Positions 3,376 through 33,388 of a stretch of DNA of 64,000 nt are shown piece by piece (position 1 is the stretch's first letter; the number at the start of each line of letters is the position of its first letter). The notes beneath the pieces were generated by a model that was not told where the DNA came from, did no database searches, and worked only from the letters and a program-made list of their open reading frames with translations. This DNA is from Phycisphaeraceae bacterium (GTDB taxonomy: Bacteria > Planctomycetota > Phycisphaerae > Phycisphaerales > Phycisphaeraceae), in the NCBI GenBank assembly GCA_020851465.1, contig JADZCR010000001.1, forward strand, positions 186,001 through 250,000, read 5' to 3'. The translations under genes were made by a program, and so were the position numbers.

Positions 3376-4071
3376 ATGCCCGAATTCCAAGGCACTTTTC
3401 CGTCGGAAGCTGAAGTCCTGCTGCGGCTTGGGCTGGCGGTACTCATGGGCCTGGTCGTCGGCTATGAGCGGGAATCACGCGGCCGCGCCGCCGGGTTGCG
3501 CACCACCATGCTCGCCTGTGTCGCTGCCTGTGTGGCGATGCTTCTTTCCACACATCTGCATCAATACACCCCCGGTAACGGCTGGAGACCCGACCCTGCA
3601 CGACTCGGTGCGAGTGTTCTGGCGGGAATGGGATTCCTCGGTGCCGGTGCCATCCTCCGCGAAGGCAACACCATCCGCGGCGTCACCACGGCCGCTGTTC
3701 TCTGGTACGTCACCATTCTGGGCTTGTGCTTCGGCGCGGGCTTTTACCTTCTGGGGATCCTCGCCTCCGGCATCGCCTTCATCGCGCTCTTCATCATCCC
3801 GCCGCTGGGTGGATTGATCGCCAACGATTGGTATGGCGTGGTCACGGTCGTTCTCGACGCCACCGGCCCAAGCGATGCCGCCATCCGCGACACCATCAAT
3901 GCCACCGGCGTGCGGGTGAAAAAGACCGACCTCCACTACCAGTTGCTCGATGGTCGGCGAACGCTGCGCTTCGACGTGAAATACAAAAAGACCGACCTGT
4001 TCGAAGTTTCCCAGCGCGTCGCTGCTGCTCTCAAAGCCCATCCGGGCATCATCGAGCTAAGCTGGGCTTGA
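3376..4071 (+). CDS. MgtC/SapB family membrane protein
   Basis: 231 residues from the ATG at 3376. This start is chosen because GGAAAG lies 5 bp upstream and the homologous region begins shortly after; a TTG at 3343 would add 11 unconvincing residues. The N-terminal half holds about five membrane segments and the family landmark GYERESRGRAAGLRTTM. The small C-terminal domain from about residue 155 is ACT-like. MgtC/SapB proteins are inner-membrane proteins linked to growth at low Mg2+ and to control of F-type ATP synthase or phosphate in some pathogens; many environmental members have no known role. An inverted repeat lies just upstream. I saw no M-box riboswitch. Confidence 0.9.
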   Translation: MPEFQGTFPSEAEVLLRLGLAVLMGLVVGYERESRGRAAGLRTTMLACVAACVAMLLSTHLHQYTPGNGWRPDPARLGASVLAGMGFLGAGAILREGNTIRGVTTAAVLWYVTILGLCFGAGFYLLGILASGIAFIALFIIPPLGGLIANDWYGVVTVVLDATGPSDAAIRDTINATGVRVKKTDLHYQLLDGRRTLRFDVKYKKTDLFEVSQRVAAALKAHPGIIELSWA

Positions 4072-6094: not shown

Positions 6095-6451
6095 TCAGCG
6101 ATACATCTTTTCTTCTAACTGCCGTTTCATGTACGCGATGTACGACTCATGCGAGCCGGGGCGTGCCTCGTACATGCCCGGGTGACGGCCCAATATCGCA
6201 TCATGGTGCTCCACGCATTCAAACCCGTGTTCTGCGCCATCGTGTTTACCGAGAAAACTGCTCACCCGTACGCATGAAGCAAACGCAAATCGTTTCTGCA
6301 ACGCCTCCGTGTCAAACACCACATCGAAGTAAATCCGCTCATGCGTGCCGCCGCTCGACGACGGGCTGCGGTAATCGACCTTATGCCCACGGGTGATCAG
6401 TTCTTCTTCCAACGCTCGCAGGTGTTCACAGACCACGACATCCTCCGTCAA
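6095..6451 (-). CDS. Uncharacterised 118-residue protein inside the topoisomerase operon
   Basis: The ORF starts with TTG at 6451, which overlaps the TGA stop of the A subunit (TTGA), so translation is probably coupled. It ends 59 bp before the B subunit. The residues include CEHLRALEEEL near the start, a FDVVFD segment, and a Cys/His-rich second half (KHDGAEHGFECVEHHDAILG), then a basic C-terminal helix. The conserved-looking Cys and His residues could bind metal, but no known fold is recognised. There is no signal peptide or membrane segment, so it is probably cytosolic. Its place between the two subunits suggests, without proving, a role linked to the topoisomerase. Confidence 0.7.
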   Translation of the reverse strand: MTEDVVVCEHLRALEEELITRGHKVDYRSPSSSGGTHERIYFDVVFDTEALQKRFAFASCVRVSSFLGKHDGAEHGFECVEHHDAILGRHPGMYEARPGSHESYIAYMKRQLEEKMYR

Positions 6452-27672: not shown

Positions 27673-28500
27673 TCAGACGGCCGCAGGCTGATTCCGCGGT
27701 TTGTTCTCGATCCTTCCCAGCCACATCGACAAATCCCATTTCGGATCGCCGGTGAGGAAGCGCCAGAGTTTGACGCGCTGCACGTACTCAATGCGCACTT
27801 CGTTGCCGTACCAACGGTGGTTGGTGCTGAGGATCTGTCGAATCTCCGGATCGTCGATGTCCTCTGTGTTCCACAAGCGGAGCTGGCGCACGGTCGGATT
27901 GACGCGGAGCTTGAGCATGTGCCGCGTGCGGTCGGTGAGATTGGGCTGGGCACAGTGCCAGATGCCGTGATGCGTGGCGATGACGGTGCCGGCCTTGCAA
28001 ACGATGCAATGCTGACCGAGGAAGTTTTGATAGCGGTTGATGTCGAACGTGTTGACTTGTCGGAAGTGGCTTCCGGGTACGACCATGGTGCCGCCCATCT
28101 CACGCGGCGTGTCGTGCGGGAAGTAATAGAACTGCACGTCGAAGTGCGTGCGCGTGTCGATGATGGCGTCGGCGTGCAGAGCCTGCGCTTCGTGGCGGCC
28201 GGGGGGAACGGTGTGGTTCGCGTGATGGTCGTACAACGGGTCAGGCCCCACGAGCGAGTGCATGATTCCCTGAAAGCGCGGGTGGTCGAACACCGCACGC
28301 ACACCGGGCATGTTTTCAAACATCCGCGACAACGGCGTGCCCGACTTCGCGTAGCCATACCAACCGCCGGTCTCCTTCGACTGAAGCTCGGCAAGAGCCT
28401 TGGTATTAAGCTCGGCAGGGATGAGACTGTCGAACTGAAGAAAACCATCCGCGACAAAGCGCGCCATCTGCTTACTGGTCAGGAGGAGTGATTTATCCAT
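27673..28500 (-). CDS. Phytanoyl-CoA dioxygenase family protein, paralogue 1
   Basis: 275 residues from ATG 28500, chosen because AGGGA lies 9 bp upstream and the homology with its neighbour starts here; a longer frame from 28620 adds 40 unrelated residues. The Fe(II) triad is H109-x-D111 (LHADAIID) and H182 (WHCAQPN), with R192 for 2-oxoglutarate. Landmarks shared with the next gene are SLVGPDPLYDHH, TPREMGGTMVVPGSHFRQVN and RQLRLWNTED. It hydroxylates an unknown small molecule. It is 68 bp after paralogue 2 on the same strand. Confidence 0.88.
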   Translation of the reverse strand: MDKSLLLTSKQMARFVADGFLQFDSLIPAELNTKALAELQSKETGGWYGYAKSGTPLSRMFENMPGVRAVFDHPRFQGIMHSLVGPDPLYDHHANHTVPPGRHEAQALHADAIIDTRTHFDVQFYYFPHDTPREMGGTMVVPGSHFRQVNTFDINRYQNFLGQHCIVCKAGTVIATHHGIWHCAQPNLTDRTRHMLKLRVNPTVRQLRLWNTEDIDDPEIRQILSTNHRWYGNEVRIEYVQRVKLWRFLTGDPKWDLSMWLGRIENKPRNQPAAV

Positions 28501-28568
28501 GTGCGTGATCCCTGGAGCTTCGGAACAATTTCTTCCGGTGCGGCGAAACGAAGCGCGAGGCTTCATCG

Positions 28569-29393
28569 TCACGTCGCAGCGGGCACGTTCTCCGGTTTGT
28601 TTTCCAATCGTCCCAGCCAATAGCCTGCGTCGAATTTCTCGTTGCCGGTGATAAATCGCCAGAGTTTGATGCGCTGCACGATTTCGATGCGGTCGTCGTT
28701 GCCGTACCAGCCGTGGCTGCGACCAAGGATGCCGTCGATTTCCGGGTTATCCAGATCGTCGGTGTTCCAGAGTCGGAGCTGCCTGACCATCGGGTTGAGT
28801 CGGACCTTGAACATGTAGCGTGTCTGCTCGGTGTGATTGGACTGCGCACAATGCCAGACGCCGTGGTGACCGACCACGATCGTGCCGGCCTTGCACACGA
28901 TGGGGTGCTGGCCGAGGAAGTTCTGATGGCGGGCGATATCGCTTTCGTTGACCTGCCGGAAATGACTGCCGGGCAGAAACATCGTGCCGCCCATTTCGCG
29001 CGGCGTGTCATGCGCGAAGTAGAAAATCTGGATGTCAAAGTCCAGCCGGGTGTCGATGATGGCGTCGGCGTGCCACAGGTGCCTCTGCTGCGCACGCGGC
29101 GGAACAATGTGGACGTGGTGATGGTCGTAGCGCGGCTCCGGGCCAACGAGCGAGTGAATGATCGCACGCACCTTCGGCAGCGCGAGCATGGCACCGACGC
29201 CCGATGAATCCCGCCACTTGCTCGACAACGGCTCACCTCGATAGCCGCCGCTGTGTGGCCAGGGCTGCTCCTCAAACTCCCGGATCGCAGCTCGATTGAT
29301 CTCCGGCGGCACCAGTTGGTCGAAACGGAGAAAGCCATCCGTCACAAAGTTGGCCATCTGCCGGGTGGTGAGAAGATTCTTTGAGTCAGACAT
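28569..29393 (-). CDS. Phytanoyl-CoA dioxygenase family protein, paralogue 2
   Basis: 274 residues from ATG 29393; a frame from 29426 would add 11. The order of motifs matches paralogue 1: LVGPEPRYDHHH, the metal-binding LWHADAIID, TPREMGGTMFLPGSHFRQVN, the distal WHCAQSN and LRLWNTDD. Both copies keep the full iron triad, so both should be active, perhaps on related substrates. The pair looks like a tandem duplication that has diverged well, since the sequence between the motifs differs. It is preceded by a small unknown gene 36 bp upstream. Confidence 0.88.
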   Translation of the reverse strand: MSDSKNLLTTRQMANFVTDGFLRFDQLVPPEINRAAIREFEEQPWPHSGGYRGEPLSSKWRDSSGVGAMLALPKVRAIIHSLVGPEPRYDHHHVHIVPPRAQQRHLWHADAIIDTRLDFDIQIFYFAHDTPREMGGTMFLPGSHFRQVNESDIARHQNFLGQHPIVCKAGTIVVGHHGVWHCAQSNHTEQTRYMFKVRLNPMVRQLRLWNTDDLDNPEIDGILGRSHGWYGNDDRIEIVQRIKLWRFITGNEKFDAGYWLGRLENKPENVPAAT

Positions 29394-29429
29394 GGCTTGA
29401 TCCGTTACCAATGCTTCCGCTGCCAATCA

Positions 29430-29741
29430 TCAGACGGACGACTGCTGCTTTTGCGGCACAGGCAAATCCACGTCCACCATCTTTTCGAGTACGTACTCGA
29501 ACTTCAGATAACTGGTGGTGTATTCCATACCCGGATAGGCGGGGATCTGTTGTGGAAGCTGAATGACGCGCCAACCGTCCTTCATCGCTTCGAGAACAGA
29601 GTCATACGGCGGACGGTCGCTGTCACCCGTGGTGTGCGTTTCCCGGCCGGTGCCGTCGTAGATGGTCCAGGCTCCGACACTCGAACCTAGGTCGGGAGTG
29701 CTCAGGTAGAGAATCATGAGTTGCTGACGAAAAGTTGGCAT
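29430..29741 (-). CDS. Small protein of unknown function
   Basis: 103 residues. The central part reads WTIYDGTGRETHTTGDSD and then a well-ordered second half PPYDSVLEAMKDGWRVIQLP, PAYPGMEYTTSYLKFEYVLEK. There is no signal peptide, membrane segment or metal motif. It is the first gene of the run with the PhyH paralogues and ends 36 bp before them, so it may belong to their operon. I recognise no family. Confidence 0.65.
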   Translation of the reverse strand: MPTFRQQLMILYLSTPDLGSSVGAWTIYDGTGRETHTTGDSDRPPYDSVLEAMKDGWRVIQLPQQIPAYPGMEYTTSYLKFEYVLEKMVDVDLPVPQKQQSSV

Positions 29742-30244
29742 GTCATATCCGCATCAAGATCAGGAATCGAAAAAGCGAAACTGCTGCAGAGGTCATTTTC
29801 GCAGCGCGCGACGCGGGCATTTTAACGAAGGCCGACCGGATCACGCACCGCCACGGACGGCGACGGATCACATCATCCGCAACTCCGATCCAAGCCACCC
29901 CATCCGCCCCGAATGGAGCGGAAAGAAATTTGCAAAATAAAAAGTTCACTATGCAATAAACTATCCCACTTAGACGTTGTACTGTTGTATTTTTATTTTA
30001 CCGAAGGTCGAGAGACACCCGGCTGCGACAATCGACTCGTGAATCACATCAAAGCTCTGCTGCGAACCGCAAAACCAAAGGACCACGATTGACAGGTTTA
30101 ACACGTCCAACGAGCTTGGTAATTTTCCATATCTCTTTTATTTGAAGTGTATTAGATAAAAATTGCGCCTTTTGGTTCTGGAATCAGCGTCGGGATTGGT
30201 CGGCGGGTCTGCCGTGCTCCGCAGGCCGGGTAAAGGCTCTTAAC
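29742..30244. promoter_or_regulatory. AT-rich intergenic region with putative promoter of the GH17-GT2 gene
   Basis: No gene is supported here. From about 29930 to 30180 the sequence is clearly richer in A and T than its surroundings. TTGGTA at 30116-30121 and TATTTG at 30139-30144 are 17 bp apart and form a weak sigma70-like promoter on the plus strand. A promoter for the minus-strand small gene at 29741 must also lie here but was not identified. Confidence 0.3.
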
Positions 30245-30514
30245 ATGTGGACTTTTCTAACCTTGTCTGCTATTTTTATGCTCCTGCGGGCAGATTCCGC
30301 AGTCGTGGGAATTGTGCGTAGTGGTCGTTCGCTCGGGCGCTGCGGGCAAACCCCATGGGTTCAGGGCTTCTTGTCTTCATGGACCGTCCTGGTCCTACCC
30401 TGCCCCATTTTTAAGCCAATCAGAGCGCGTTTCGGTTGTCCGGCCCAATGTCAGGCCGGGCGATGGCCGACACGAAAGAGTGGGTACGGCGAAAGCCGTC
30501 AAGGCTGTCCTTCT
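30245..30514 (+). ncRNA. Hairpin-rich leader upstream of the GH17-GT2 gene
   Basis: An in-frame ATG at 30245 exists, but the encoded 90 residues are Cys/Arg-rich and unlike any domain, so this is read as a leader. Perfect hairpins are AACCC/GGGTT (about 30350-30362), GGACC/GGTCC (about 30381-30395), a CAGGG/CCCTG stem around it followed by ATTTTT near 30408-30413, CCGGCC/GGCCGG (about 30440-30459), and ACGGC-GAAA-GCCGT (about 30486-30499), 16 bases before the start codon. The CCCTG arm plus T-run could be a terminator. A fragment GGGCAAACC recalls the c-di-GMP-I riboswitch, but its other conserved parts are absent. Confidence 0.4.
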
Positions 30515-33388
30515 ATGAACAGGTCCACGTCTATCGCATTGATTCTCGCGCTGGTGATGTTCCTCAACTTTGTCGCCTGGGGCCTCTCCCCTCGCGGCAC
30601 GGGTGACATCGAGGCCCATGCCTTTTCGCACCTCCCGGGTATCACCTACTCGCCCTACCGTGAAGGACAGGATCCCACCAAAGGGAGCATTCCCAACCCA
30701 CGGCTGATTGATGAAGACTTCGCCATCCTCAGCGGCAAGGTACAGGCGATTCGTACCTACGGCTCAACAAAAGGTCTGGAAGTCATCCCCGCGCTGGCAG
30801 CCAAACACGGGCTGCGGGTAATCCAGACCGCATGGCTCGACGGCAACCGCCAAACCAACGAGGCGGAAATCAATGAGTTGATCGCCAGCACGCACCGCAA
30901 TCCCAATGTCGAAGCCGTTCTGGTCGGCAACGAAGTGGTGTACCGCGGTGATCTGGCGGACCCCAACGATCCGCAGAACAACTGGGTGACCTATCTGCCC
31001 GCAGGCGTCAAGCCGACCAGCGCAGCCAAGGCGGATGAAAACAACCCGATCGAATGGGAAGCCGCAAAACGAGCCAACACCCATCGTCAAAAGCAGACGG
31101 TCGAAGAACTCATCAAGCACCTTGATCGCGTGAAGAAAGAGAGCCGCTTCGGCGTGCCTGTCAGCGCCAGCGAGCAGTACCACGTTTATCTGGAGCACCC
31201 AAAGCTCGCCGAGGCTGTGGACTTCATCGCCATCCACGTCTTCCCCTACTGGGAAGGCAAGACGGTGGACGAAGCGGTGACTTTTGCCGAGCAGAACATC
31301 GAAGCGGTTCGCAAAGCCTATCCGAACAAGGAGGTCGTCGTCACTGAAATCGGCTGGCCCAGCGGCGGGGAGTTCCGCCTCGGCGCAGTACCCAGCGCGT
31401 GGAATCAGGAGCAGTTTGTCCGCGAGTTTGTCAGCCGGACGATGCAGCGGCGCTATTTCATCTTCCAAGCGTTTGACGAGCCATGGAAAGGTGTCGGCGA
31501 CGCGCAGTTAGGCGACAGCGAAGGCAGCGTCGGCGCACACTGGGGTCTCTGGGATAAGAACCGTCACGCCAAGTTCGACTGGGAAAAGCCTTCATACGCG
31601 GGTGTGCCGTGGATGACGCAATGGCTGGCCGCCACCGCCGCTGGCATGATCCTCAGCGCCGTCTTCATCTTCCGCTATCACGAGAAATTCCGCTTTGAAG
31701 GACTGGCTTTCTTCTGCGTCATGCTTCAGGCAGCCGTCTCGGTCCTCACCTATGTGGGGCTGGTGCCGACGATGGCGTGGCTGACGCCTTCCGCCAAGCT
31801 GCTCTGGATTCTCCTTTTCCCTGCGCAGCTTGTGATGATGGGGATCGTCATCATTCAAGCGCAGGAGGTCAGCGAGATGCTCTGGGTCAAGCGGTGGCGT
31901 CGCCGGTTTGAACCCCACGTCCACCCGCTGCCGGCGAATCGTTACCCGATGGTTTCACTGCACATCGCCTGCTGCAACGAGCCGCCGCACATGGTGATCC
32001 GTTCGCTCGAATCACTCGCGGCGCTGGACTATCCGAATCTTGAAGTGCTGGTCATCGACAACAACACGAGCGATGAATCCAAATGGAGACCGCTCGAAGC
32101 CTGGTGTGCCCAGTCGGGCGTCGCGGGACAGAATCGGTTCCGCTTTTTCCATCTGGAAAAATGGCCCGGCTACAAGGCCGGCGCGTTGAACTTTGCCCTC
32201 ACGCAGACCGCACCTGAGGCGCAGGTCGTCGGCGTGCTCGATGCTGACTACATCGTCAAGCCCGAATGGCTGCGCGAGGTCATGCCCTACTTCAACGATC
32301 CGAAAGTCGGCCTGGTGCAGGGACCGCAGGACCATCGCTCCTGGAAGAAAAACGCCTTCAAGGAAATGATGAACTGGGAGTATCGCGGATTCTTCCACAT
32401 CGGCATGGTTCATCGCAACGAATACGATGCGATCATCCAGCACGGCACGATGTGTCTGATCCGCAAGTCGGCTCTGGAACAGGTCGGCCGCTGGGGTGAA
32501 TGGTGCATTTGCGAGGACGCGGAGCTTGGTCTGCGTCTCATGCAGCACGACTACGAAACCGTGTACATGGAAGAGTCGTACGGCTTTGGCGTCGTACCCG
32601 ACACGCTGGCAGCCTATAAGAAACAGCGGTTCCGCTGGGCCTACGGAGCGATCCAGATTCTCCGCGGGCACTGGAAGAGCCTGCTCCCCTGGTCGCGCAA
32701 CGGCCTGTCGCTGTCGCAGAAGTACCACTTCATCGCCGGCTGGCTCCCGTGGCTGGGTGACGCGCTGCACCTGGTTTTCACCCTGCTGCTTTTGCTGGGT
32801 ACGGCTGCGCTGGTCTTTCTGCCGCGTCACTTCATGATGCCGATCGTTGCGTTCCTCATCCCGCCGATGGCGCTGGCGGTGTTCAACATCGTGCGCTCGG
32901 TGTGGCTGTATAAGGAGCGGGTCGCGTGCACCTGGCCGCAGCGCATCGGGGCGTGCATCGCCGGGCTGGGATTGACCTACACCATCGGTCGGGCGTGTCT
33001 GACGGGGCTGGTGTATTCCGGGCGTCCGTTCTATCGCACGCCCAAGTGCGAGAAGATGTCCGCCCTGTGGCGCAGCCTTGCCATGGCGCGTGATGAAATG
33101 GTGCTGCTGACGCTTCTCTGGTCGGGTATCGCGGGCATCGTCTATATTCGAGGAAGCTGGCAAAACCCGCAGACGCTGGTGTGGATGACGAGCCTGGCGC
33201 TCCAGTCGATCCCGTACCTCGCGGCCGTGGTGACTGCGGTGGTGGCAGGCACGAACCTGCAATCGCTCTCAGTCTTCGCCGGGCCTTTGGCGCAGCGCGG
33301 TCGATGGACGCAGCTCGAAGCCCGTCGCGCCCGCCGGATGCGCTCGGTGGTGTCGGCTCCAGCCAACAGTTCCGCCGCCACGACGTAA
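30515..33388 (+). CDS. GH17-GT2 fusion, NdvB-like membrane beta-glucan synthase
   Basis: 957 residues from ATG 30515. Residues 5-24 are a signal anchor. A GH17-like domain covers about 35-355 with both catalytic Glu: E140 (LVGNEV) and E278 (VVTEIGWPS). Three membrane segments (about 370-450) lead to a GT2 domain (about 475-730) with DAD at 576-578, CEDAELGLR and QRFRW. More membrane segments end the protein. This order matches NdvB-type enzymes that make beta-1,3 or 1,3/1,6 glucans. The GH17 part faces the periplasm and may branch, cyclise or trim the chain. It stands alone, after a long leader. Confidence 0.88.
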   Translation: MNRSTSIALILALVMFLNFVAWGLSPRGTGDIEAHAFSHLPGITYSPYREGQDPTKGSIPNPRLIDEDFAILSGKVQAIRTYGSTKGLEVIPALAAKHGLRVIQTAWLDGNRQTNEAEINELIASTHRNPNVEAVLVGNEVVYRGDLADPNDPQNNWVTYLPAGVKPTSAAKADENNPIEWEAAKRANTHRQKQTVEELIKHLDRVKKESRFGVPVSASEQYHVYLEHPKLAEAVDFIAIHVFPYWEGKTVDEAVTFAEQNIEAVRKAYPNKEVVVTEIGWPSGGEFRLGAVPSAWNQEQFVREFVSRTMQRRYFIFQAFDEPWKGVGDAQLGDSEGSVGAHWGLWDKNRHAKFDWEKPSYAGVPWMTQWLAATAAGMILSAVFIFRYHEKFRFEGLAFFCVMLQAAVSVLTYVGLVPTMAWLTPSAKLLWILLFPAQLVMMGIVIIQAQEVSEMLWVKRWRRRFEPHVHPLPANRYPMVSLHIACCNEPPHMVIRSLESLAALDYPNLEVLVIDNNTSDESKWRPLEAWCAQSGVAGQNRFRFFHLEKWPGYKAGALNFALTQTAPEAQVVGVLDADYIVKPEWLREVMPYFNDPKVGLVQGPQDHRSWKKNAFKEMMNWEYRGFFHIGMVHRNEYDAIIQHGTMCLIRKSALEQVGRWGEWCICEDAELGLRLMQHDYETVYMEESYGFGVVPDTLAAYKKQRFRWAYGAIQILRGHWKSLLPWSRNGLSLSQKYHFIAGWLPWLGDALHLVFTLLLLLGTAALVFLPRHFMMPIVAFLIPPMALAVFNIVRSVWLYKERVACTWPQRIGACIAGLGLTYTIGRACLTGLVYSGRPFYRTPKCEKMSALWRSLAMARDEMVLLTLLWSGIAGIVYIRGSWQNPQTLVWMTSLALQSIPYLAAVVTAVVAGTNLQSLSVFAGPLAQRGRWTQLEARRARRMRSVVSAPANSSAATT

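Follow-up and report, generated by a model that had tools for sequence, protein, structure and literature searches.

A hairpin-rich segment of 270 bases precedes a predicted beta-glucan synthase gene in the 64,000-nt stretch of DNA analysed here (the window), raising the question of whether it is translated as part of the enzyme, acts as a regulatory RNA or DNA element, or is structured merely by chance. The initial annotation had described it as a long structured leader, possibly a riboswitch or attenuator belonging to a new RNA class. The reading favoured here, which we hold at about even confidence, is that the stretch forms an untranslated, lineage-specific structured 5' leader on the mRNA for the GH17-GT2 glucan synthase that, if functional, would most likely set translation or mRNA stability. 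The features of the locus are collected in Table 1.

Table 1. Features of the glucan synthase locus (window coordinates)
Feature	Position	Strand	Basis
A+T-rich stretch, probable (putative) leader promoter region	30100..30166	+	GC profile
Structured non-coding leader of glucan synthase gene	30245..30514	+	Codon score; MFE against shuffles
Hairpin CTGCGGg..tCCGCAG	30284..30302	+	Pair probability 0.76-0.94 in three of four stretches; the fourth begins inside the hairpin
Long imperfect hairpin, arms CGTGGG / TTGT / CGTAGTG / TCG	30304..30357	+	Pair probability 0.87-1.00 in all four stretches
Perfect stem AACCC..GGGTT	30349-30361	+	Stem scan
CAGGG..CCCTG stem around the GGACC..GGTCC hairpin	30362..30402	+	Probability 0.92 and 0.96 with the fold ending at 30470
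Perfect stem GGACC..GGTCC	30381-30395	+	Stem scan
Compound stem, closing arms CCCATTTTT / AAGAGTGGG	30404..30484	+	0.88-0.96 folded from 30245 or 30300
Inner stem TGTCCGGCC / GGCCGGGCG of the compound stem	30437-30462	+	Pair probability
Perfect stem CCGGCC..GGCCGG	30440-30459	+	Stem scan
GNRA-capped hairpin ACGGC-GAAA-GCCGT	30486..30499	+	Pair probability 0.56-0.94; ends 15 nt before the start codon
CAAGG (weak Shine-Dalgarno-like) and GTCC	30500..30510	+	Possible partners 30249-30252 and 30261-30265
GH17 plus GT2 beta-glucan synthase, 957 aa	30515..33388	+	Pfam PF00332, PF13641, PF13632

Genomic context and coding status

The protein of the downstream gene carries a GH17 and a GT2 domain on a single chain (PF00332, 28.9 bits against a cut-off of 28.2; PF13641, 97.2 bits). 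Its homologues share 40-51% identity over the best segment, and the gene is rare in the class, being found in two of 298 genomes at E 1e-60, its own genome included. Pfam analysis of the glucan synthase revealed no PilZ domain. The genome itself harbors five GGDEF and six PilZ matches, and on this sequence evidence the host probably makes c-di-GMP.

The reading frame of the gene is open from 30245 to 33388, and the enzyme could in principle begin at 30245 with a 90-residue extension. The codon score of 30245-30514 was -0.198, close to that of off-frame windows (mean -0.187, sd 0.082) and lower than that of every in-frame gene window (mean 0.172, sd 0.083). All six frames of the segment were off-frame-like in their codon statistics, and the gene scored as coding from 30515. 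Of the 66 homologue loci, 21 were inspected; in these a membrane anchor helix begins close to the start of the match, as MNRSTSIALILALVMF does here. In six of these 21 (L006, L020, L024, L030, L034 and L050), fewer than 10 residues of open frame precede the match. In others the open frame reaches farther, by up to 166 residues (L008), which decides nothing alone. Because the codon statistics are off-frame-like and the homologues start right before the same anchor, a translation start at 30515, as previously assumed, rather than at 30245, is well supported at the sequence level. Translation of the leader, for which the open frame is the argument, is thus scarcely credible.

GC content is 0.30-0.38 per 40 nt at 30100-30179 and 0.5-0.68 downstream. 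Transcription of the leader would probably start near 30166, following the A+T-rich block, which is a probable promoter; a motif scan found no match to the sigma-70 consensus near the leader. The neighbouring ORF at 29430-29741 lies on the opposite strand, making the region divergent. Farther out on the minus strand, 27673-29426 holds two adjoining ORFs that appear by eye to be tandem relatives; the one transcribed first (28569-29426) showed a PhyH dioxygenase match in Pfam.

Hairpins, folding stability and predicted fold

Five perfect Watson-Crick stems, none overlapping another, occur in the leader, each at least 5 bp long and with a loop of 3-9 nt, which bears out the earlier count of at least five hairpins in 270 bases; dinucleotide shuffles contained 1.33 on average, and five or more in 8 of 1000. 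The GNRA-capped hairpin reported just before the start codon is likewise present. The leader's minimum free energy (MFE) was -109.5, whereas its dinucleotide shuffles averaged -95.8 (sd 5.0); 9 in 1000 of them were as stable. On these figures z is about -2.7 (-3.40 with 60 shuffles; -2.29 with 200, of which five were as stable). With the region chosen by eye from 64 kb, this excess of about 1 in 100 is moderate evidence only, and it counts against the favoured reading and towards chance structure. Against chance, both halves of the leader fell below their shuffles separately (z -2.36 and -2.78), and the five perfect stems compare with 1.3 expected. The z of -2.36 belongs to the segment 30398-30506, for which 3 of 200 shuffles were as stable.

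The palindromes might instead work as DNA, serving as operators for regulators of divergent promoters between 29741 and 30515. The divergent neighbour and the compact dyads AACCCCATGGGTT and GGACCGTCCTGGTCC are in keeping with this; however, every dyad sits over 100 nt downstream from the putative A+T-rich promoter, no dyad occurs twice in a repeat scan of 29700-30530, and the complementary strand gave a z of only -1.65 against about -2.7 for the coding strand, a better fit to RNA than to DNA. Operator function is accordingly quite unlikely.

Pair probabilities were obtained by single-sequence prediction over four overlapping stretches (e.g., 30245-30520 and 30166-30540). The leader RNA is predicted to fold into the 54-nt hairpin at 30304..30357, which is its best-supported helix in these models, the compound stem and the GNRA hairpin beside the start codon. 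Not every perfect hairpin is present in the predicted fold, AACCCCATGGGTT competing with the longer stem 30304-30357. Pairing of CCCATTTTT with AAGAGTGGG reached 0.88-0.90 in the two stretches with both arms and a start at or after 30245; it did not exceed 0.5 in the 30166-30540 stretch, yet was kept in the minimum-energy fold of that stretch. The CAGGG..CCCTG stem was displaced in longer folds. Mutually exclusive alternatives are predicted for 30352-30360, which may pair either with 30304-30309 or with 30397-30408; within it, 30355-30359 may pair with 30404-30408 or be partly taken by 30304-30357. Taken with the codon score, the shuffles and the homologue anchors, this fold supports the description of the stretch as a long, structured, untranslated leader, its transcription being inferred.

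If the leader has a role, it would most likely concern the translation or mRNA stability of a single gene. CAAGG could pair with CCTTG at 30261-30265, or 30249-30270 could pair with 30221-30240, leaving the start region more or less open. The former pairing reached only 0.62-0.65 when folded from 30245 and was lost (<0.5) in the longer fold from 30166, which weighs against the favoured reading; in that fold 30249-30270 paired with 30221-30240 instead (0.51-0.55). A more specific proposal is a lineage-restricted regulatory RNA in which 30249-30270 switches between 30221-30240 and the start region at 30500-30510, controlling translation on some signal, and this is highly unlikely.

The stability of the leader was compared with that of upstream regions in 444 kb (380 kb of contig C3 plus the window), where a simple codon model predicted 61 regions of 250 bp or more; one of them is this leader itself, taken from a start at 30539. 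Two of the 61 had a z as low as the leader's -3.40 in the same 60-shuffle run, and four were as low as or lower than its 1000-shuffle z of about -2.7 (-5.2, -3.6, -3.0 and -2.8). On average the upstream regions of this genome fold more stably than their shuffles (mean z -0.70), which, on the side of chance structure, makes part of the leader's deviation general. Rfam identified a SAM riboswitch (RF00162, 74.2 bits) on the minus strand of contig C3 (L111:6396-6545), in the predicted upstream region of an ORF starting near 6267. Its presence in one of the two strongest of the 61 serves as a positive control, indicating that the yardstick detects real regulatory leaders. Its structure excess is comparable to that of the glucan synthase leader (z -3.57 vs -3.40), whereas Rfam recognises the riboswitch and not the leader. 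The most structured of the 61 regions (L114:3672-3941, contig C3; z -5.23, GC 0.39) carries several A+T-rich dyads before a predicted gene start at 3942 and gave no Rfam match.

Known RNA families and termination signals

A new class of ligand-binding riboswitch or transcription attenuator would accord with the long leader, the nested stems, the U-run and the exclusive pairings of 30352-30360, as well as with probable c-di-GMP production by the host. The Rfam/Infernal search suggested earlier, run against 4227 families with E values up to 10 allowed, matched none of them to the leader (30160-30530), and gathering scores likewise gave nothing. Over 29900-30800 at E up to 5, one chance snoRNA match was obtained, inside the gene. 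As controls, a tRNA was found within the window and the SAM riboswitch elsewhere in the genome.

Short pieces of the leader had been likened to a c-di-GMP-I motif. Two of them, GGGCAAACC (30344-30352) and CGAAAGAGTGGG (30473-30484), resemble parts of the c-di-GMP-I (GEMM-I) consensus and stand in the same order. In that riboswitch the core pieces are nearly adjacent in one compact junction, whereas in the leader they are ~120 nt apart and in different helices, and the RF01051 covariance model did not match the leader at the gathering score or at E up to 10. RF01051 was also found in 0 of 51 genomes of the family, and likewise in none of 14 control genomes, so that this count shows no absence by itself.

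The ATTTTT run noted downstream of a hairpin exists (30407-30412); however, in most predictions it is a paired arm within the long stem rather than a terminator tail, the U-run after the GGACC hairpin pairing with 30476-30484 at a probability of 0.88 in the 30245-30520 fold. CCCCATTTTT, which follows the 30362..30402 stem, looks terminator-like by eye only. A scan of 29700-30700 found no terminator-like site against a mean of 1.4 in shuffles. The attenuator idea thus finds no support, and nothing points to a ligand, a terminator or a partner for the leader.

Relatives of the leader

A DNA search of the 51 family genomes with the leader returned, besides itself, only short matches (~16-42 bp, E of at least 0.008) that were treated as chance. 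Two covariance models, one per leader half and each built from a single sequence, were run on the 51 family genomes, the 298 class genomes and 51 local sources that contain 28 of the 66 homologue loci. In the family and class genomes only the window itself was found at E 0.01 or better, the class searches scoring only ~11 or 12 candidates per genome, so that weak members could escape. Four weak matches in the family (25.5, 17.6, 20.8 and 15.2 bits) were rejected, all lying within open frames of 456-1035 codons; five weaker ones (E 2 to 3.7) occurred in the local sources with homologue loci. No second copy of the leader was found in its own genome, in the 50 other family genomes or in the 297 other class genomes. 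Riboswitch classes are usually widespread, and together with the lack of an Rfam match and of a terminator this makes a riboswitch or attenuator very doubtful. The claim of a new RNA class fares no better: a conserved structured class is recognised by several members with compensatory changes, and no second member was found in the genomes searched.

G026 (51% identity over the best segment) and G002 are the nearest homologues, and their leaders do not align with this one (mean column identity 52%, no conserved block). The leaders of the 21 inspected homologues together with G026 and G002, measured from approximate starts, had a mean z of -0.55, so these leaders are not structured as a rule; three fell below -2.5 (L004, -2.64; L005, -3.30; L012, -3.13). 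The glucan synthase leader is non-coding and has more predicted structure than its own shuffles, and neither its sequence nor its structure is conserved in the genomes searched. This last result weighs against the favoured reading. That no relative keeps the leader also suits its main rival, chance structure in fast-evolving G+C-rich intergenic DNA with no selected function, which we regard as less likely but still serious.

Candidate motifs among orphan structured 5' leaders of bacterial mRNAs have been published (for example PMC2864571). Such leaders are likewise long and non-coding, several stems preceding one enzyme gene; published motifs are built by comparing homologous members, whereas the leader here is a single member. 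The full texts searched yielded no paper on such a leader, which is not proof of absence. Should the leader prove functional, it would add another single-species case of a structured leader upstream of an exopolysaccharide or glucan gene, and it would become useful only once relatives of the same genus are sequenced. It also warns against calling a hairpin-rich leader a riboswitch when it has no homologues.

Rfam analysis of 14 of the 66 homologue loci placed no family inside a leader. The sole hit was a COG3860 RNA (RF02940; L009:2422-2475, minus strand), located on the other strand ~1.5 kb upstream of the glucan synthase homologue of a deltaproteobacterial MAG.
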